A stretch of 64,000 bases of DNA from a virus: positions 1 through 64,000 of IMG/VR virus record IMGVR_UViG_3300002460_000025; one strand, 5' to 3'. Below are positions 7,943-34,606 of this stretch, one piece after another. The position numbers were made by a program, and so were the translations under genes. The notes under the pieces are model-generated. The model saw only the letters and a program-made list of their open reading frames with translations, searched no databases and had not been told where the DNA came from. Numbering within the stretch: position 1 is the stretch's first letter; every line of letters begins with the position of its first letter.

Positions 7943-8116
7943 ATGCCATTCGAAAGTGAAGCGCAACGACGATTCATGTTTGCTCGACATCCGAAGATTG
8001 CCAAACGATGGGCAGACACCTATGGCATCACTGACGATCTACCCAAGCGGAAAGGGAAGAAGCGTTCGAAGGCTCACCCGGCGGCTGAAGGATTGAAACG
8101 AGCGACACCAAGGTAA
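7943..8116 (+). CDS. Small basic phage protein (FESEAQRRFMFARHP type)
   Basis: 57 residues beginning MPFESEAQRRFMFARHPKIA. This short N-terminal motif recurs in many phage-encoded proteins, often near packaging or head genes. The C-terminus is Lys/Arg-rich. Function unknown; DNA binding is possible. Confidence 0.75.
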   Translation: MPFESEAQRRFMFARHPKIAKRWADTYGITDDLPKRKGKKRSKAHPAAEGLKRATPR

Positions 8117-21235: not shown

Positions 21236-21532
21236 ATGGCTCAAAACGGCCTCGCGGCGATCATTGAATACAAACGGAAGCTGAAGGAAGCCCAGGATGC
21301 GGCCGAGGGGAAAACCCCCAAGGAAGCTCCTGCGGTGACTGGCCTCAAAGCGGCGGTTCCCAAGGAGAAGCCTGCTGAGAAGCCTGTCGAGAAGCCTGCT
21401 CCACCCAAGCCACCGGCCCCCTATGTTCCCATCAAAGACAAGACGGCTGAGGAGAAGGCACAGTTAGCCGAGGAGATGAAAGCTGAAATGGAACTCCGTG
21501 CCGCGAGGGCGAAAGCCAAGGCCAAGAAGTAA
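21236..21532 (+). CDS. Lys/Ala/Pro-rich disordered protein
   Basis: 98 residues with a helical start, a central run of EKPAEKPVEKPAPPKPP and a charged helical end (EEMKAEMELRAARAKAKAKK). Likely a linker, assembly or DNA-associated protein. Low complexity prevents a family call. Confidence 0.7.
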   Translation: MAQNGLAAIIEYKRKLKEAQDAAEGKTPKEAPAVTGLKAAVPKEKPAEKPVEKPAPPKPPAPYVPIKDKTAEEKAQLAEEMKAEMELRAARAKAKAKK

Positions 21533-26742: not shown

Positions 26743-27492
26743 ATGTCTACAGTTGATCCAGCCCGCCTCGAAGCCCTGATGGCGGCAAACGCAGCCGAGG
26801 AATCTCGTCGGCGAGATGCGGAACTGGCGAGGCAGGAACGGGTTCGACAAGAACGCCTGAATCGCCCCCAGGCAGCCGCGAATGTGGGACAGACACAAGC
26901 CAATACACAAGGGACACTTGGCGAAACTCGATATACGACCGATCCCTACGAGCGCACAGGTGTCTCTGGTTATGCCGGGTCTGGGAACATCACCGGCCAG
27001 GAATATGGAGCCCAACAACAGGAAATCCTTCAGTCACAATTGAACCAGGATCTCTGGAATCAACGCTTGAACGCGATTCAAGGGCTTGGTGGGGGGAGTG
27101 GGGGCGTGAGTCCAGGCGGAATGGTCACGCATCCAGGCGCGGGCGTTGCAGGAAATGAACCGGCAGCGAGAGCCGCCGCATTCGCTCGTGCGAAGGAACA
27201 GGCTGGTCTGACAGCACAGTCAGCCCTCCAAGGACTTAGGGAATCCCTCGGGTCGAGAGGCATGCTTGGATCGACTGAGGAAGCCAGGGGGACGGGAGCC
27301 GTCATTGGCGGAGCAGGACAGGGACTGAATCAGTTCACTCGCGACCAGATGATTCTGGATCTCAACCGGGCGGCAGATATCTCTGATCAGGTGTATCAGG
27401 GTAATATCCAACAGCGTGGTCAGAACATTGGAGCACAGCAACAGGCCGTGCAGCAATTGTGGCAGTTGATGGGTTCGGGAAAGTTGTACTAA
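26743..27492 (+). CDS. Internal-virion-like protein, Gln/Gly-rich
   Basis: 249 residues. The N-terminal third is a charged helix (RRRDAELARQERVRQERLNR). The middle is Gly/Gln-rich and disordered, with the short motif SALQGLRESLGSRG shared with downstream genes. The C-terminus is a Gln-rich helix. It fits an ejected or internal head protein; function not proven. Confidence 0.65.
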   Translation: MSTVDPARLEALMAANAAEESRRRDAELARQERVRQERLNRPQAAANVGQTQANTQGTLGETRYTTDPYERTGVSGYAGSGNITGQEYGAQQQEILQSQLNQDLWNQRLNAIQGLGGGSGGVSPGGMVTHPGAGVAGNEPAARAAAFARAKEQAGLTAQSALQGLRESLGSRGMLGSTEEARGTGAVIGGAGQGLNQFTRDQMILDLNRAADISDQVYQGNIQQRGQNIGAQQQAVQQLWQLMGSGKLY

Positions 27493-27493
27493 G

Positions 27494-27964
27494 ATGGCTG
27501 TTTACGGGACGGCAAAATCGGCGAATCCGCAACTAGCTAATACTCTAAATAGACTATCATTTGGAGGGAAATATGCTGGTTCCGTGGGAGGAATAAATAG
27601 TGGTGTACAGGGATCCTCTGCTCCTGCTCCCACATATTATCATTACACACGTACGGAAGCGCCAGATACACCCCAAGCTTATACCCCTAGGAAACCATCA
27701 CCAACACCGGCTACACCCCCTCAACAACCGTATCCATCAAGTCAGTCTGGTGATGCTCAAGCGGCTCCTGCGACTGGCGGAGCCCAAGTCCTCGAAGGTC
27801 TCCAGCAAGCTGCCCCTCCCGGTGGTGGAGGGATGATGATGGGTGATGCTGGACCCGAACCCACTCCAGGCATGGGGATAGGTACAATTGGCACTCGTCC
27901 TGGACTTGGTCGTCGAACCTATCCTATGGAAACTGCCTTGCAAGGGCTTCAACGAGCGTATTAA
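27494..27964 (+). CDS. Pro/Gly/Gln-rich protein with ALxGLQ motifs
   Basis: 156 residues, mostly disordered (TPATPPQQPYPSSQ). It ends in TALQGLQRAY and contains VLEGLQQAAPPGG, two copies of the shared motif. The N-terminal 60 codons are more A/T-rich than their neighbours. Confidence 0.65.
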   Translation: MAVYGTAKSANPQLANTLNRLSFGGKYAGSVGGINSGVQGSSAPAPTYYHYTRTEAPDTPQAYTPRKPSPTPATPPQQPYPSSQSGDAQAAPATGGAQVLEGLQQAAPPGGGGMMMGDAGPEPTPGMGIGTIGTRPGLGRRTYPMETALQGLQRAY

Positions 27965-27966
27965 CC

Positions 27967-28476
27967 ATGGCGTTCAGCAATTTTCTCAAATCCGGGTGGG
28001 GAACATTACCACCACCTCCTGCTCCAGTTCAGCAGACATCAAGTTATGGATTTGCTCCACCCACCCCAACCGTGATGGGCCCCCGCAAACCATCATCATC
28101 GCAACCATCATCGTCGATTGATACGTGGCAAACGAGTACTGATGAGCGTCAAAATCCGTGGGTGACTCAATGGAAACAAGACAATCCTGGTGTTACAGGG
28201 GTCTCTGTAAATGATGCTTATCAGCAGTGGAGAGATAAGCTACGTTCGAAGCAAACGTGGAAACCAGGAGATGCACCAATTCGAGTAGGTTTTGATAAAC
28301 CTGGGCAGCAGGCACAACAAGGACTCCAGCGATCGGCTCCCGCTGCCGCCGTATCTCGTGGTATGAGCTATGCCGCGAAGGTCGGGAGTCCAGGACCAAA
28401 AACCTTCAAGAAACGCGCTTCCGATTTTGGGCCTCCCCAACAAGCAGCCATCACAGGACTTCAACAGGTCTCGTAA
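27967..28476 (+). CDS. Pro/Ser/Gln-rich protein with GLQ motifs
   Basis: 169 residues. A disordered N-terminus is followed by a possible small folded part (WVTQWKQDNPGVTGVSVNDA, then YQQWRDKL). It carries QQGLQRSAPAAAVSRG and ends AAITGLQQVS. Part of the motif-sharing run. Confidence 0.65.
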   Translation: MAFSNFLKSGWGTLPPPPAPVQQTSSYGFAPPTPTVMGPRKPSSSQPSSSIDTWQTSTDERQNPWVTQWKQDNPGVTGVSVNDAYQQWRDKLRSKQTWKPGDAPIRVGFDKPGQQAQQGLQRSAPAAAVSRGMSYAAKVGSPGPKTFKKRASDFGPPQQAAITGLQQVS

Positions 28477-28485
28477 GGAATCATC

Positions 28486-28938
28486 ATGCTAGGTGCAATG
28501 GGGAATTGGAATCCTTGGATGCCTCAGGGACAAGGACAAGGATTACCTGCTGGTAATACCGGATTCACGGGTGGAATGTCCTATGGTGGAGGACCGTCCG
28601 CAGTGGATCCCAGTCGTATGTGGGGACCGATGACGGGCGGGTTCTATCAGAACTTTGATTCCACCGTCAATCGCAACTACCGCCCAGGATCAGCCCCTCG
28701 CGGTCCAGTCGCGCGGGCCGCGATTGGTGGGATCAAGAAAGCCGCACCTCCTCGTCCCATGGCAACCGCGATGGGTGGAGGAGCCCCACGTCCCGCAGGG
28801 GGTGGTTATAATACAGGCGCGACTGGGAGCATGACCTACGGCGGAGCCCGTCCTCAGACAGCCCTCTCACGATTCCGTCAGCAAGAACGCACACCCCAGG
28901 CCGGAGCGGCCCTCAGTGGTCTGCGAGGAAGTTACTAA
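28486..28938 (+). CDS. Gly/Pro-rich protein with GLR motif
   Basis: 150 residues, Gly, Asn, Met and Pro-rich, disordered. It contains AAIGGIKKAAPPRP and ends ALSGLRGSY. A repeated GGxxxNTG(A/F)TG(S/G)MTYGG pattern occurs twice (MSYGGG, MTYGGA). Confidence 0.65.
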   Translation: MLGAMGNWNPWMPQGQGQGLPAGNTGFTGGMSYGGGPSAVDPSRMWGPMTGGFYQNFDSTVNRNYRPGSAPRGPVARAAIGGIKKAAPPRPMATAMGGGAPRPAGGGYNTGATGSMTYGGARPQTALSRFRQQERTPQAGAALSGLRGSY

Positions 28939-28940
28939 TC

Positions 28941-29423
28941 ATGGCAGATATGTATGATCCCCTCGGTGTGGGTGCTCGACAGCGAGCGGCTGACTACCAT
29001 CGACAGTGGGAAGAAGATCAGCGTGAACAGGCTCGCCAACAGGGGCAGTATGTCTCCTTCGGACAGCTAGGACCACTTCGTGATCCCAGTTGGGATGCGT
29101 ACTTTCAGGTCCTCCAGGAGAAGGGTGTAGATCGCCTTGCCGGTGGGTCTCTCCCACAGTGGCAGCCTCCTCGGTCTACGGCTGGTGCTGGACAGACACC
29201 TCTCCCTGCGTACCAGGGATTGATGGCGGCTGGTCCTCGTCGTCTCACAGACCAACCAACACAACGGTTGACGGATCGTCCCACTCAACCAAAAACGGAT
29301 CGTCCCGATCAATCACAGACCGCGATCGAGACACTCCTACGTCTCTTTCAGGGACAGTATGGGGCTCAACAAGAACGCAAGCGTCTCCGTCCACCGACGC
29401 AGGTGATGGGTCCACGAGGATAA
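28941..29423 (+). CDS. Gln/Arg/Pro-rich virion-region protein
   Basis: 160 residues. A charged N-terminal helix (QRAADYHRQWEEDQREQARQ) is followed by a disordered part with three repeats of (Q/R)LTDxPTQ/PKTDRPDQ, then a helix (AIETLLRLFQGQYG). It has only a weak version of the shared motif (PAYQGLMAAGP). Confidence 0.65.
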   Translation: MADMYDPLGVGARQRAADYHRQWEEDQREQARQQGQYVSFGQLGPLRDPSWDAYFQVLQEKGVDRLAGGSLPQWQPPRSTAGAGQTPLPAYQGLMAAGPRRLTDQPTQRLTDRPTQPKTDRPDQSQTAIETLLRLFQGQYGAQQERKRLRPPTQVMGPRG

Positions 29424-29425
29424 TC

Positions 29426-29587
29426 ATGCCCGCACAACCACGATCATGGCAGTACGGTGACTCACCAGCCCCTCGCAATTGGCGTGAAGCGGCTGACGTC
29501 CTGAAACGTCTCCCACGCCCGAACAAGACATCGTCAGTGACGGCTCGTCTCGACACGATTGAACGTCTTCTCAAGGAGAAGAAGTAA
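29426..29587 (+). CDS. Small basic protein
   Basis: 53 residues, begins MPAQPRSWQYGDSPAPRNWR and ends in a helix (TARLDTIERLLKEKK). Overlaps the next start by one base. Unknown. Confidence 0.65.
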   Translation: MPAQPRSWQYGDSPAPRNWREAADVLKRLPRPNKTSSVTARLDTIERLLKEKK

Positions 29588-30360
29588 TGCCTGCTTACGG
29601 TCAACAGCCTCCTTACACGGGGCCATTCGCGCTGAATCCATCCTTCCGGTGGCAACGTCCGTTTGAGGATCAAGAAGAGCTTGAGGCGATTGATGTCGAT
29701 ACACCACCGTTGCCTCCGGCTCCGCAACGATTCCAGTCTGATGTCATGCCTCCACGGCCCGTGCCAGAGGATGCTGATGAGATGATTCGCAACCGATCGG
29801 TCCCGGTGCAAGGTGGATTTGATCCAGAATCTAGTGTGCCTGGGGAGGCTACCTATGGTGGTCCTCGCCTCAACACTGAGGCCGCCCTCGCGGGGCTCAG
29901 GAATGCTCCTGTCAACCCGGAAATTGCCCGTATCCAGAATGCGTTTAACATCCGTTCGACGGGTCGTCCACAGGATCTTGCCTACAGTGGTGGCATCCTC
30001 GGTGATGTCGAGCAGAGCTTTGCTCCACAACGGGCGATGCTTGGTGATGTTGAAAAGTCGATGATGGCACAGCATCCAGCCGTGCGTGCGCTCCAAGAGC
30101 AGGAAGCTCGTCGAAAGGCGATGGGTCAATCAGCGTATGCGGAAGGGCTGGCTGAACAGGCGGAGATTGGGGCTGAACAACGACGCGAAGAAGCGGAGCT
30201 GGACTTTGAAGCCAAGCGTCGTGCAGCCGGGCAGTCGGGTCGTGAAGCACAAATCAAAGCCTACACGGATATCCTCACCAGTCAAGGGGACGACGAGCAA
30301 GCAGAACGTGCTCGCACGTGGGCGCTGGAGAATTTGCTCAACCTCTTTGGTGGACAATAA
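29587..30360 (+). CDS. Helical internal-virion-like protein
   Basis: 257 residues. A Pro-rich N-terminus carries the shared motif (TEAALAGLRNAPVNPEIARI). Residues about 165-240 are a long Glu/Ala/Arg helix (AEQRREEAELDFEAKRRAAG). It directly precedes the 1015-aa internal protein, with which it may act in DNA ejection; inference from position. Confidence 0.65.
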   Translation: MPAYGQQPPYTGPFALNPSFRWQRPFEDQEELEAIDVDTPPLPPAPQRFQSDVMPPRPVPEDADEMIRNRSVPVQGGFDPESSVPGEATYGGPRLNTEAALAGLRNAPVNPEIARIQNAFNIRSTGRPQDLAYSGGILGDVEQSFAPQRAMLGDVEKSMMAQHPAVRALQEQEARRKAMGQSAYAEGLAEQAEIGAEQRREEAELDFEAKRRAAGQSGREAQIKAYTDILTSQGDDEQAERARTWALENLLNLFGGQ

Positions 30361-33300
30361 ATGCCCGAAGATCGAAAGGCTGCACGATCGGCTCGTCGAG
30401 AGGCGAGACGGAAAGAGTTCAATGACTTGATGCGGTCCCTCTCCGCACCTGAACCACCATTCGTTCCAGCCACGCCACTCCCTCCACCAGATCCCACCCT
30501 CTGGGAGAGATCAAAAAAGTTCGCCCCAACGGCTGTGAGGGGCATTGGTGGACTGCTTGGTGTCACTCCCGTGACGGGAGCGATCGGCGGAGGTGTGTCT
30601 GAACTGGCTGCTGAAGCGTTGGAAGGACGCTTTGCTCCCAAGGAAATCGCGACTGCGGCTGGTCTTGGACTTCTTGGTGGTGGAGCGGTCCGTACACTCT
30701 TGAAGAACGTTGGAGCCCCTCTCACAGCAGCGGCTCGAACAGTGCCATGGGCTGCGGCTCAACCTGTCGTGCGATCCCTGTCTGAGGAGGGTGAACTGCC
30801 TGAGGCTGGCGAGGTAGCAACCAGTGTAGGTCTTCAAGCGGGTGTGGCCGGAGGTCTATCGAAATTGCTCGGGACGCTTGGTGTAGGTAAGATTGGTAAG
30901 ATTGGATTAGAGACGGCTCCTCCGGCGGCGAAAGCGGTTCCTCCAGCCCCCCCTGTTCCAAAAGGTCCTGCCCTCCTGACCAATGCGGCCGGTGATGTCG
31001 TTCGTGTGAAGGATGTCCCCCTGACTCCGACAGGACCAATTACTGGCACACCATCTGATATCTCGAAGACGATTGCTCCTCTCATCAGAGGACCAATCGA
31101 GAAAGCATCGAATCTTGCACGGAAGGAGACACGCTCTGCGTTAGAGAAGGCATTAGTTCCAGAACGTGAACCAGCAGGCATTCGTGCAAGTCGTACTGAG
31201 GCGACACGAGTACAGCGTGCAGAGGAAGCGGCTGACCGTGAGGCATTACGTCTGGCAGCGGCCGAGGAAAAGTCAGCTGCGAAAGCAGTAGATGACGCAG
31301 CGGCTCGTCATCGGATTGATGAGGCCAAGTCACAGGGGATGACACCAGCGCCTCCATCAGTCAGTGAGACGGTCTCCGCGAGGATCCCTGGTGGGACAGA
31401 ACGTCTCACCCAGAAGTACCGATTCCCGGAGGAACAGGTCGATGAAGGTGTCGAAGCTCTCGGGAATACCCTTGGCGTGACTCCTCCTCCCCCACCACGA
31501 GGAGTCCCATCAGCCTTACAGACTGAGGTGTCTGAGGAGGTGGCGAAAGAACTTCCACTCGCTCCGAGAGGGGTCACCAGTGATACGGAGGCAGCGGCTG
31601 AGGCCATTACAAAAACTCCAGGACAACCTGCTGTTCCGACTGAACCGATTCCTGCTCAAAATCGAGCCCAACCAGATATCATCCCCGAAACTCAAGCTCC
31701 TCCGATCACCCCACCTGTTCCTGAAACCACTCCACCATTCCTTGGTGGACAGGCGGAAGCTGTGGGCGGGGCCGAAACAACGATCCCCCTCTCTGCCATC
31801 CGTCGTGCGCCAGTCGATATCGCTGGTGAGCACTATCGGGAACTTCAGGGACTCCTCAAGGGTCCAGGACAACAGGTCGGAGCCTTGGGACCAGTGACAG
31901 GTGAAGGATTGGAGAAGGGCACTCGAACGGCTGGACGGGCGCTCCAGCGTGAAGCAGCCCAGGCAGGACTCCCCACGAGGGGGGCTGCTCAAGTCGCTCC
32001 TACGGCCCCTGTAAGCCCTCCAGCAGGCATTCCAGGCGCTCCAGCCACTTCTCCCACAGGACTGAGTTTCGAGGACATGATGAAGCGTGTCCAAACCCTT
32101 GGTCGCCGTCCAGGTGGGGCTGGTCGCTATGGGGAGGAACGCGGAGCCGTCACCCCTGAACTCGCGGCCCGCCTCGGCCTCGGTGTCTCCGGTGCCGTCC
32201 TCGGTGCCGCCTTGAGCCCAGACGAGGATCGTATGATCGGTGCGGCGATAGGAGCCGTTGCAGGCTCGTCCTTGCCGTTACTGCTCTCAAAAATGAGTCC
32301 TGCGGCGATCAAGGCCCTCCCACCATCTGTCATCTCAGATGCCACGCCAGAAGGTCAAAAAACGGCTCTCGAAACCATCACTCGGATGTTCCCCAACCTC
32401 ATCCGATTCAATCTCCTTTCCAGCCCCAATCTGTTTAACAATGCGATTGCTGGTCCATGGGGAGCAGGCAAGATGGCCGGTCTGGAACTTCATCTTGCAG
32501 GCGATCCTCGTGGTCGCGTCGTCCTTGAAGGCATGCGCCCAGAAAATTGGGCGTCCGAGTTCATCAAGAGTTGGCCTGAAGCCAAAACCATCATCGGTGC
32601 GGCGGAGCGTCATGAAGGGCTGTCCATTGCAGAGGCGCCCACATTGCTGGAGCAGTTCCTCGCGGTTCCTGGAACCTTCCTCTCCATGGGTGACATCACG
32701 ACTCGTCGTATTCTGACACAGGCGGGATTGACTGAGGCGGAAGCCAGAATGGTGACCCTCACGAGTGAACCAGAACTCGGCCTGACAAAAGGGATTGTCA
32801 ACCTTCAGAGAAGTGGTGGAATTGTAGGTCATAGCCTCCTCCCCTTCGCTCGAACACTCGCCAACGTCGTTGAACAGGGTGGATACCGTACTCCAGGTCT
32901 TGGTCCGATCCTTCAATCGTATCGAACAAATCCTGCTCCAGCGAAGCTCCAAGCCATGCAACAACTCCTCGGTGGAGCTACCATTGCCGGATCAGGTGTG
33001 GCCGGAGCCGCTATTCCAGCTGGACTTGAAGCCGCAGGTATCTCTCCAGATAATGAACGATTACTGGAACGCACGCTGCGAAGTGGTGTGACCAACGTCG
33101 CTGGTCCTTATGCCCTTCTCGCGGCCATGGGGTATGCCGGTGGGAAAGCTCTTGGACAAGGCGAACCCGCCCGTGTTGCGGCAAGCACGGCCATGACAGA
33201 AGGAATGCGATCCCTCCCACTCCCATCGACAGATATTCCAGAATCCTACAAACAATTCTTCCTCGGCTCTCGCACACAAGAACCATTCCAGAATATCCCT

Positions 33301-33408
33301 GCTGGATCACTCCCAACGTTTGCCGTGGAATTACTCAGACGTGCTGAGCCCGGTCGCAGACCACAGCTTCCACGGCGTCCACAGCGTCACACCCGTAAGG
33401 AACGGTAA
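30361..33408 (+). CDS. Very large internal/ejection-like virion protein
   Basis: 1015 residues, by far the largest gene. It has an N-terminal charged helix, a Gly/Ala-rich hydrophobic region (GIGGLLGVTPVTGAIGGGVS, about 60-80), a long disordered Pro/Glu/Ala middle, and two more Gly-zipper-like segments (LGVSGAVLGAALSP; IGAAIGAVAGSSLPLLLS, about 615-645) plus a hydrophobic C-terminal third. Such segments suit a protein that forms a membrane channel during infection, like podovirus internal proteins. No enzymatic motif was found. Confidence 0.65.
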   Translation: MPEDRKAARSARREARRKEFNDLMRSLSAPEPPFVPATPLPPPDPTLWERSKKFAPTAVRGIGGLLGVTPVTGAIGGGVSELAAEALEGRFAPKEIATAAGLGLLGGGAVRTLLKNVGAPLTAAARTVPWAAAQPVVRSLSEEGELPEAGEVATSVGLQAGVAGGLSKLLGTLGVGKIGKIGLETAPPAAKAVPPAPPVPKGPALLTNAAGDVVRVKDVPLTPTGPITGTPSDISKTIAPLIRGPIEKASNLARKETRSALEKALVPEREPAGIRASRTEATRVQRAEEAADREALRLAAAEEKSAAKAVDDAAARHRIDEAKSQGMTPAPPSVSETVSARIPGGTERLTQKYRFPEEQVDEGVEALGNTLGVTPPPPPRGVPSALQTEVSEEVAKELPLAPRGVTSDTEAAAEAITKTPGQPAVPTEPIPAQNRAQPDIIPETQAPPITPPVPETTPPFLGGQAEAVGGAETTIPLSAIRRAPVDIAGEHYRELQGLLKGPGQQVGALGPVTGEGLEKGTRTAGRALQREAAQAGLPTRGAAQVAPTAPVSPPAGIPGAPATSPTGLSFEDMMKRVQTLGRRPGGAGRYGEERGAVTPELAARLGLGVSGAVLGAALSPDEDRMIGAAIGAVAGSSLPLLLSKMSPAAIKALPPSVISDATPEGQKTALETITRMFPNLIRFNLLSSPNLFNNAIAGPWGAGKMAGLELHLAGDPRGRVVLEGMRPENWASEFIKSWPEAKTIIGAAERHEGLSIAEAPTLLEQFLAVPGTFLSMGDITTRRILTQAGLTEAEARMVTLTSEPELGLTKGIVNLQRSGGIVGHSLLPFARTLANVVEQGGYRTPGLGPILQSYRTNPAPAKLQAMQQLLGGATIAGSGVAGAAIPAGLEAAGISPDNERLLERTLRSGVTNVAGPYALLAAMGYAGGKALGQGEPARVAASTAMTEGMRSLPLPSTDIPESYKQFFLGSRTQEPFQNIPAGSLPTFAVELLRRAEPGRRPQLPRRPQRHTRKER

Positions 33409-33678: not shown

Positions 33679-34160
33679 TGTCTGTTATCGATGATATCAT
33701 CACGGACGTGATCAGGAGGGAGGCGGGTTACTCCAATGACCCTGCCGATGGAGGAGGTCGAACTGACAAAGGGATCTCCGAGCGATCACACCCAGATGCC
33801 TGGGCTGATGGGAAAGTCACGGACCAGGAAGCCCGTGATATATACTTGAAAAAGTACGTCCTCGGTCCTGGGTTCGATAAGATTCCTGATCCGCACCTCA
33901 TGGCTCACCTCGTCGACTATGGTGTCAACAGTGGCCCCCTCATTGCGGTCCAGAAGCTCCAGACATTGGTTGGGGCTGATGTGGATGGTGTGCTCGGTCC
34001 CCAGACACTTGGCAAGCTTGCACAGTTTGACATGAGGACCATCAATAACCTCCTCGTCGGCGAGCGCGTCCGGATGATTGGGCGGATTGTCAAGAAAAAT
34101 CCATCTCAACTGACGTTCCTGAATGGCTGGTTAGCACGAGCCACGGAGTTCCTACGCTAA
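33678..34160 (+). CDS. GH108-type lysozyme (endolysin)
   Basis: 160 residues. The N-terminus shows REAGYSNDPADGGGRTDKGI, the hallmark of glycoside hydrolase family 108 muramidases with the catalytic Glu in REAGY. The C-terminal part (VGADVDGVLGPQTLGKL) resembles the peptidoglycan-binding 3 domain usually attached. It cleaves the host wall at lysis. Length is typical. Confidence 0.9.
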   Translation: MSVIDDIITDVIRREAGYSNDPADGGGRTDKGISERSHPDAWADGKVTDQEARDIYLKKYVLGPGFDKIPDPHLMAHLVDYGVNSGPLIAVQKLQTLVGADVDGVLGPQTLGKLAQFDMRTINNLLVGERVRMIGRIVKKNPSQLTFLNGWLARATEFLR

Positions 34161-34606
34161 TGCCAAATCCTGCACTTGAAGGACTCCTCAACATCTTCCG
34201 ACGGGAAGGTCCTCCCAACCTCTCTGAACGAGCCGCTGCCGACTATCCTGAGATGGAAGCGGCGTGGGCTGCGAGTCAGATCGAGATGCCGAAACAGGCA
34301 CAATGGGTCCGATCCATTCGTCCTATGAATGTGTTGGAACGTTTTCTCAAACCACAAGCCCAAGCCATCACCCATCCATGGGGAACCATTGCCTACTCCC
34401 CACGCAAACTGCGTGAGGAGCAAGCAGACCTTGGTGATATGTTGGCCCACGAACTCACGCATGCGGGTCAATACCAACGTGAAGGGACTCTCGGGATGCT
34501 CAAGAATATCCTCACAGGAAAGAGTTCAGCTTACGAAGATGAGGCGTGGGGAGCCGAACAGAAGCGTCCCGTCCGTCGAGGTGATATCCAACTCCCACCA
34601 GACTAA
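34160..34606 (+). CDS. HExxH metallopeptidase-like protein
   Basis: 148 residues. HELTHAGQ (about 96-103) is a zinc-metallopeptidase HExxH motif, in a setting (DLGDMLAHELTHAGQYQREG) like DUF4157-type peptidases. The N-terminus contains ALEGLLNIFRREGPP, a version of the motif in the 27-30 kb genes. It may process virion proteins or assist lysis. Confidence 0.7.
   Translation: MPNPALEGLLNIFRREGPPNLSERAAADYPEMEAAWAASQIEMPKQAQWVRSIRPMNVLERFLKPQAQAITHPWGTIAYSPRKLREEQADLGDMLAHELTHAGQYQREGTLGMLKNILTGKSSAYEDEAWGAEQKRPVRRGDIQLPPD

Follow-up and report, generated by a model that had tools for sequence, protein, structure and literature searches.

How the different ejection proteins of podoviruses are gathered at the portal vertex is poorly understood. 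As far as the available sections of the reports cited in this paragraph describe them, the diverse internal proteins of T4 have in common only a capsid targeting sequence, by which they enter the scaffolding core (PMC3012670), the incorporation of the P22 ejection proteins into the procapsid needs the scaffold and not the portal (PMC4992974), a recent procapsid structure has the docking site at the inner end of the scaffold columns (PMC12005531), a helix of an ejection protein of phage PhiM1 intercalates in the portal crown (PMC11440229), and the C-terminal loop of T7 gp7.3, present in six copies, anchors to two adjacent nozzle subunits (PMC11784390). In the same sections of PMC12005531 and PMC4992974 the recognised peptide on the P22 ejection proteins is not named. 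Here we describe a short peptide motif, A(L/I)xGL(R/Q), that recurs in a run of small genes (g037 to g043, positions 26743-30360) in a window of 64,000 nucleotides taken from a 71620-base IMG/VR virus record, together with a C-terminal tail ending in an aromatic residue that is conserved among related phages. A search of open-licence papers showed none that describes the ALxGL motif or this tail in podovirus proteins. Our preferred reading, in which we place about even confidence, is that several unrelated proteins of this late block share a short docking tag that binds one partner, for loading or seating in the particle. A sequence-predictable tail common to unrelated proteins would mark unannotated small genes as likely virion cargo, and a defined shared tail would give a direct handle on the incorporation of proteins.

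The 90 genes of the window were called by a custom script, whose starts and small genes are possibly wrong. A terminase, portal (g017), tail fibre, endolysin and DNA polymerase can be identified, g018 is the presumed scaffold, and the capsid gene g019 matches the NCBIfam podovirus capsid model (E 2.3e-23). A sequence-only reading of the window had listed variants of the motif in five genes of the run, often at the C-terminus, and all of the listed peptides are present. The strict form, A[LI].GL[RQ], occurs once each in g037 (residue 161 of 249), g038 (148 of 156), g039 (161 of 169), g040 (142 of 150) and g043 (100 of 257), and three of these five sites stop exactly three residues short of the C-terminus. 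The five sites fall within the 1194 aa of the seven genes g037 to g043, and the 15938 aa of the other 83 genes contain none. When the residues of each protein were shuffled, the mean was 0.019 sites and none of 5000 shuffles reached five, so that the motif is not as frequent in shuffled or unrelated proteins as in the run. A concern with any such count is chance or composition, since proteins rich in Ala, Leu, Gly and Gln might often yield ALxGL and the pattern was picked after the sequences had been viewed. Because the pattern was chosen post hoc, we added a count that uses no pattern, namely of pairs of similar 8-mers among the seven proteins (BLOSUM62 score of at least 26). The proteins gave 35 such pairs, some of which are not the motif; 300 shuffles averaged 13.7 pairs and never exceeded 29.

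Relatives of the virus provided a held-out sample. Among deposited records, the closest relative to emerge was MW202554, an environmental record with a capsid identity of 40%, and the motif is absent from the seven genes of this distant relative that were inspected. The phage collection gave distant capsid and portal matches only, with no match to g033 or to a g037 relative at the thresholds used; a pattern search of bacterial genomes gave no g033 relative, and a single-protein search of viral contigs with g044 alone gave no relatives. Relatives were reached through the terminase, capsid (38 loci) and g033 (61 loci) genes. In the first g033 set of 61 loci a profile identified a g037-family gene in 38 and none in 23, of which 14 have less than 3.4 kb past g033, six have no g033 call and three reach about 10 kb. 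Seven near-identical loci, picked by eye on equal or nearly equal g037 scores (L131, L114, L083, L121, L095, L123 and L116), were removed before counting, which left 31 genomes and the window. A further g033 set, from which 15 of 56 loci were used, yielded ten genomes with a g037 member; L160, L171, L142 and L151 have no g037 hit (the contig of L142 is already in the first set), L163 duplicates L162, and the tails are alike in L152 and L184 and in L155 and L161.

The motif recurs in these relatives. The held-out block was defined as the genes of fewer than 500 aa within 5 kb after the g037 homologue and before the next large gene, which gave 103 genes in the 31 genomes, the window being excluded. 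A looser motif, [ASPV][LIM].GL[RQKLM], has 17 sites there, where shuffling gives 2.06 on average (0 of 500 shuffles), and five of the 17 end within seven residues of the C-terminus. Reversing the motif abolishes the enrichment in this block (2 sites against 2.07). Within the g037 family of the relatives the looser motif has 10 sites against 0.91 (0 of 500). The further ten genomes yield 3 block sites, where shuffles average 0.55 (7 of 500), and 3 sites in the upstream genes against 2.2 (185 of 500). A matrix built solely from seven window peptides gave, at threshold 11, 12 sites in the 103 block proteins against 2.15. The strongest held-out matches to this matrix sit in the g031 slot of some relatives, that is, among the small genes between the homologues of g029 and g032, where 20 proteins have five sites against 0.05 at the same threshold, two of the five being one protein on two contigs. 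Examples from the slot are AVLQGLKKAA and AALLGLKQAA and, near the C-terminus, ASLTGLRKAA and RSLGGLQKAA; 13 of the 20 proteins have no matrix site even at threshold 9. A few of the relatives' sites are near the N-terminus, for example at residue 27 of 169 in G007. Outside the block and the g031 slot, the large protein of one relative (L109:16929-21509) has five matches to the window matrix at threshold 9.

The second element is the aromatic end. Tyr or Phe is the last residue in 31 of the 32 members of the g037 family, and 17 of 30 genomes have such an end on the gene directly downstream of the g037 homologue. The frequency among the remaining genes is 42 of 1046 (59 of 1076 when the next genes are included), and at each gene offset from -6 to -1 and from +2 to +8 there are between 0 and 3 such ends. 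To remove the tail from the definition of the family, a profile was trained without the last 30 residues and run on equally trimmed proteins; all ten of the members that it found in loci unused for training end in Tyr or Phe, against a background of 77 of 1333 that includes the next genes. The family is conserved in a helical region, A..AFARAKD..G.....AL..L......RG..GSG.E, and at its extreme end, and an AlphaFold model of g037 (pTM 0.37) has helices at residues 6-40, 87-116, 139-171 and 178-244. The g037 tail takes the form ...LLxLxxG(R/L)Y, and that of the next gene is R.(Y/L/M)P...(A/S)L..L....Y. Three of the 90 window genes end in Tyr (g037, g038 and g040), and g017 and g066 end in Phe. Judging from the tails METALQGLQRAY, NPALTGLLQVRTY, PPSLAGLLQVRAY and SPSLAGLRSLY, ALxGL may be one form of the aromatic tail. 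With the held-out relatives, the reversed-motif control and the aromatic tail recovered by a tail-blind model added to the shuffles of the window, chance or composition is a very improbable explanation, even though looser forms are about twofold enriched outside the block as well.

An aromatic end could in principle have a cause in the nucleotide sequence, in that the ribosome-binding site of the next gene and its spacer would shape the terminal codons, with the Tyr and the preceding Arg or Gly as by-products. Many of these genes abut the next gene, and a terminal Tyr is encoded by TAC in 48 of 53 cases, compared with 148 of 236 for Tyr codons inside such genes (42 genes, 21 pairs). A Tyr or Phe end is found, however, on only 16 of 355 background genes whose neighbour starts 0-12 bases downstream, and on nine of the ten g037 members for which this gap exceeds 40 bases. 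These spacing controls make a by-product of the ribosome-binding site extremely unlikely, and the TAC bias of the terminal codon stays unexplained under them.

When the tails were removed from the 17 aromatic-ended next-gene proteins, their bodies matched neither one another nor g037 at an E-value of 0.01 or less. Tails of g037 and the next gene that come from one genome are more alike than those taken from different genomes (43 of 20000 permutations for 17 pairs; 160 of 20000 for 21 pairs), and no such likeness was seen in control stretches from the body and the N-terminus. This pattern would fit a partner that varies from phage to phage, and local gene conversion could also produce it.

The genes of the run differ in how they carry these elements. 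Coordinates below are positions in the window, and features given as start..end lie on the + strand. The first gene, g037 (26743..27492, 249 aa), founds the family that is kept across the phage group; it consists mostly of long helices and has the C-terminal tail AVQQLWQLMGSGKLY. Its motif copy, ALQGLR (27223..27240), is part of SALQGLRES and lies inside the conserved helical domain, for which the family consensus is ALxxLxxxxxxRGxxGSGxE, and it is therefore probably not a free linear motif; judging from the alignment and the model, it may be an element of a different kind from the other copies. In g038 (27494..27964, 156 aa) there is an internal VLEGLQQAAPP (VLEGLQ, 27788..27805) and a C-terminal tail, RTYPMETALQGLQRAY (27914..27961), with ALQGLQ at 27935-27952. 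The protein of g039 (27967..28476, 169 aa) is of low hydropathy and has an internal AQQGLQRSAP and a C-terminal AITGLQQVS (AITGLQ, 28447..28464). That of g040 (28486..28938, 150 aa) has an internal AIGGIKKAAPP (AIGGIK, 28720..28737) and, at the C-terminus, ALSGLRGSY (ALSGLR, 28909..28926), and so ends in Tyr. In g041 (28941..29423, 160 aa) the motif is present in a loose form only, AYQGLMAAGP (AYQGLM, 29208-29225), and AIETLLRLFQGQ lies at 29322-29357. No motif is present in g042 (29426-29587, 53 aa), which has relatives of 57 aa each in G007 and G011. In g043 (29587..30360, 257 aa) ALAGLR lies at 29884-29901 and the C-terminus is ALENLLNLFGGQ. The description of the run as disordered is borne out in part, since on a simple charge-hydropathy plot g039 to g043 lie on the disordered side and g037 and g038 just on the ordered side.

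Two further shared peptides were seen. One, in the same block, is an [MA][ST]YGG-like form, GMSYAAK, GMSYGG, SMTYGG and EATYGG, which is distributed over g039, g040 (two copies) and g043. The other is a second tail-like form, AL(E)xLLxLF, represented by AIETLLRLFQGQ in g041, ALENLLNLFGGQ at the C-terminus of g043 and ALEGLLNIF at the N-terminus of g047. Outside the run, loose copies of the motif occur in g031 (21236..21532, 98 aa), as AVTGLK at 21332-21349, and in g014 (7943..8116, 57 aa), as AAEGLK (8081-8098) within AAEGLKRATPR near the C-terminus.

Common ancestry could also leave short peptides of this kind. If the genes arose by old duplication and their bodies then diverged beyond recognition, the short and mostly C-terminal peptides would be what remains, and a common partner would be unnecessary. 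Consistent with this possibility, g040 and g043 share a longer stretch, TYGG[AP]R..T..AL..LR, which looks like an old duplication, g041 and g043 share LL.LF.GQ, and the next-gene tails share a consensus of about 18 residues, R..P....AL..L....Y, as orthologues might. On the other side, the seven block proteins show no mutual match by phmmer even at an E-value of 10, the motif copies are unlike one another as DNA, and the motif is also found internally, twice in one protein, and in the distant g031 slot. Recent duplication of DNA as the sole cause was rejected, as the copies vary at synonymous codon positions and no direct repeat of at least 14 bases spans an ALxGL site. Ancestry alone leaves the survival of only the tails unexplained, and a constraint on the tail is therefore needed anyway. 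We consider old duplication possible but not probable.

Several observations weigh against a single docking tag. The strict motif is only weakly enriched in the held-out block, with 3 sites against 0.38 (5 of 500 shuffles). The looser motif is about twofold enriched in the 531 other genes of the relatives (17 sites against 9.12; 4 of 200 shuffles) and about threefold in large proteins (6 against 2.1; 11 of 500), and because it exceeds the shuffles outside the block as well, part of the signal is ordinary helix-like sequence. Of the six genes in the run that carry a motif (counting the loose g041), just three end in Tyr, and the ALxGL motif and the aromatic end may be separate elements and not one. 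Among the ten genomes of the further set, only three have a next gene with a Tyr end, and the within-genome likeness of the tails falls to 1053 of 20000 permutations without the terminal residue. Three loci (L074, L080 and L129) have about 10 kb beyond g033 and yet no g037 hit. Finally, the identification of g033 as a P22 gp10-like nozzle is not supported by sequence, with an hhalign probability of 2.3% and no matching solved structure.

The last point bears on where such a tag might act. The tail could seat the proteins in the tail channel (the nozzle or adaptor) in the manner of T7 gp7.3, the low-complexity bodies plugging the channel or holding the DNA end. The anchoring of the six gp7.3 C-terminal loops to nozzle subunits, described above, provides a precedent, and strong motif copies occur in the g031 slot, in a stretch expected to hold tail genes. 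The likeness is architectural only, however, as gp7.3 has neither ALxGL nor an aromatic end. Since the nozzle label of g033 was not borne out, we lowered our estimate for seating in the tail channel and now regard it as unlikely.

The setting of the run suggests internal or ejected proteins. The late cluster g033-g034-g037..g044 consists of small genes followed by a large one, and it parallels the P22 order 10-26-14-7-20-16 in order only; comparisons with P22 detected no homology for g037 with gp7, g044 with gp16 or g033 with gp10. The protein of g033 matches the PHROGs annotated as virion structural protein (1.1e-9) and internal virion protein (2.7e-7). The large gene that closes the block, g044 (30361..33408, 1015 aa), has a basic C-terminus. 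The window g044 itself has no match to phrog_6651, an internal virion protein family, but two distant relatives of it match that family (L087, 6.2e-38; L091, 7.6e-31), and a profile built from the closer relatives of g044 connects both to it (9e-19 for L087 and 3.6e-9 for L091). Among the g044-family hits, six of 17 have a net charge of at least +5 in the last 15 residues; +4 is reached by 4% of 1234 other genes. According to the available part of a review, the infectivity of T7 requires positively charged residues at the C-terminus of gp16 (PMC8954989). The model of g044 gave PDB matches that all have Z under 8, with membrane-exchanger helices first, and one unnamed viral match (E 1.5e-8). 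For g037 there was no match in PHROGs, Pfam or the PDB, and a PHROG and Pfam scan of g037 to g041 and g043 gave no match for any of the six proteins. When viral and PDB libraries were searched for folds like the g037 model (pTM 0.37), no match fell below E 0.001, the viral list offering 'internal virion protein B' and 'DNA transfer protein' at E 0.29-2 only. Presence in the virion and ejection are thus inferred from the gene order and from the two distant g044 relatives that match an internal virion protein family, and on these grounds 26743-30360 is most likely an internal or ejection-protein module.

On the docking-tag reading, this module of an uncultured podovirus, between the late structural genes g033 and g034 and the large g044, would encode proteins that differ in their bodies but, through the tag, could all bind a single common partner. 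The tails would fit the scheme of one hub read by many carriers of a short peptide, in the way of the T4 capsid targeting sequence or the anchored tail of T7 gp7.3. ALxGL would be the local form of a short amphipathic helical tag, of which the commonest shape in the phage group may be a C-terminal run of Leu, Ile or Met, a few small or basic residues and a terminal Tyr or Phe. The favoured partner would be in the procapsid, either the scaffold or the portal barrel together with the cluster of ejection proteins, and loading would then take place at the portal vertex; the tail channel would be the second choice as candidate partner.

The sequence-only reading had proposed such a common docking site, and also that the metallopeptidase gene of the window, which begins with a related peptide, cuts near the motif. 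The first part remains the best-supported reading, because a looser form of the motif recurs in relatives, sits in proteins without detectable homology and overlaps a conserved tail. The second we have dropped, as nothing links g047 to cutting. The peptide itself is present: g047 (34160..34606, 148 aa) is a metallopeptidase-like gene of the HExxH type and has ALEGLLNIF near its N-terminus (34172-34198). Its match to the Pfam domain eCIS_core (PF13699), at 19.5 bits, is below the cut-off of 22, with HELTH present. The relative of g047 in G010 has PLDYLRNIF in place of ALEGLLNIF, PLDYLR thus standing where ALEGLL does, and several motif copies are already 3-7 residues from the encoded C-terminus (three of five in the window and five of 17 in relatives). 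Related HExxH genes occupy other places in relatives, such as a HEGTH gene in the g031 slot of L077 (L077:7393-7932) and a HELTH gene directly before the g029 homologue in L056 (L056:13052-13546), which suggests that the metallopeptidase-like gene moves about.

Among known systems, the likeness to T4 lies in a short peptide common to otherwise diverse proteins; for the window proteins the internal status is our assignment from the gene context. The T4 capsid targeting sequence is N-terminal and is cleaved off by the prohead protease. Within the run, in contrast, the sites are C-terminal or internal. The T7 proteins gp7.3 and gp6.7 offer a likeness of another kind, that of a small, mostly unresolved virion protein docked to the tail ring by a C-terminal loop, as far as the available part of the T7 report describes it (PMC11784390). 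T7 differs in that gp7.3 ends in GGGINI, without ALxGL, and in that one protein is involved there and several here. Neither ALxGL nor an aromatic end was seen in the T7 proteins 6.7, 7.3 and 13-16; the T7 scaffold protein gp9 ends in Phe.

The P22 and Sf6 proteins of the gp7, gp20 and gp16 type resemble the block in that small genes precede a large one where the structural genes end. They also contain similar peptides: an ALxGL-type site lies at a nearly identical position in P22 gp20 (ALTGLR at 52) and Sf6 gp12 (ALQGLS at 53), and P22 gp14 and its Sf6 counterpart have AMIGLK. The C-termini of P22 gp7 (GLLGSLF), Sf6 gp11 (GLLSSLF) and LUZ24 gp53 (GGLLF) are aromatic, and P22 differs from the present phages in that, among the proteins inspected, gp7 alone has such an end. 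From these few cases, which carry no chance estimate, the aromatic end of the gp7-like protein may predate this clade. A wider and rather doubtful extension would be a docking code common to podoviruses, in which many virion cargo proteins would be recruited by interchangeable, aromatic-ended C-terminal helical tails, with ALxGL as one dialect, that are read by one ring-shaped hub at the portal vertex. If it were true, phages could gain new cargo merely by acquiring a tail, and P22 gp7, Sf6 gp11 and LUZ24 gp53 would be its single-copy cases.

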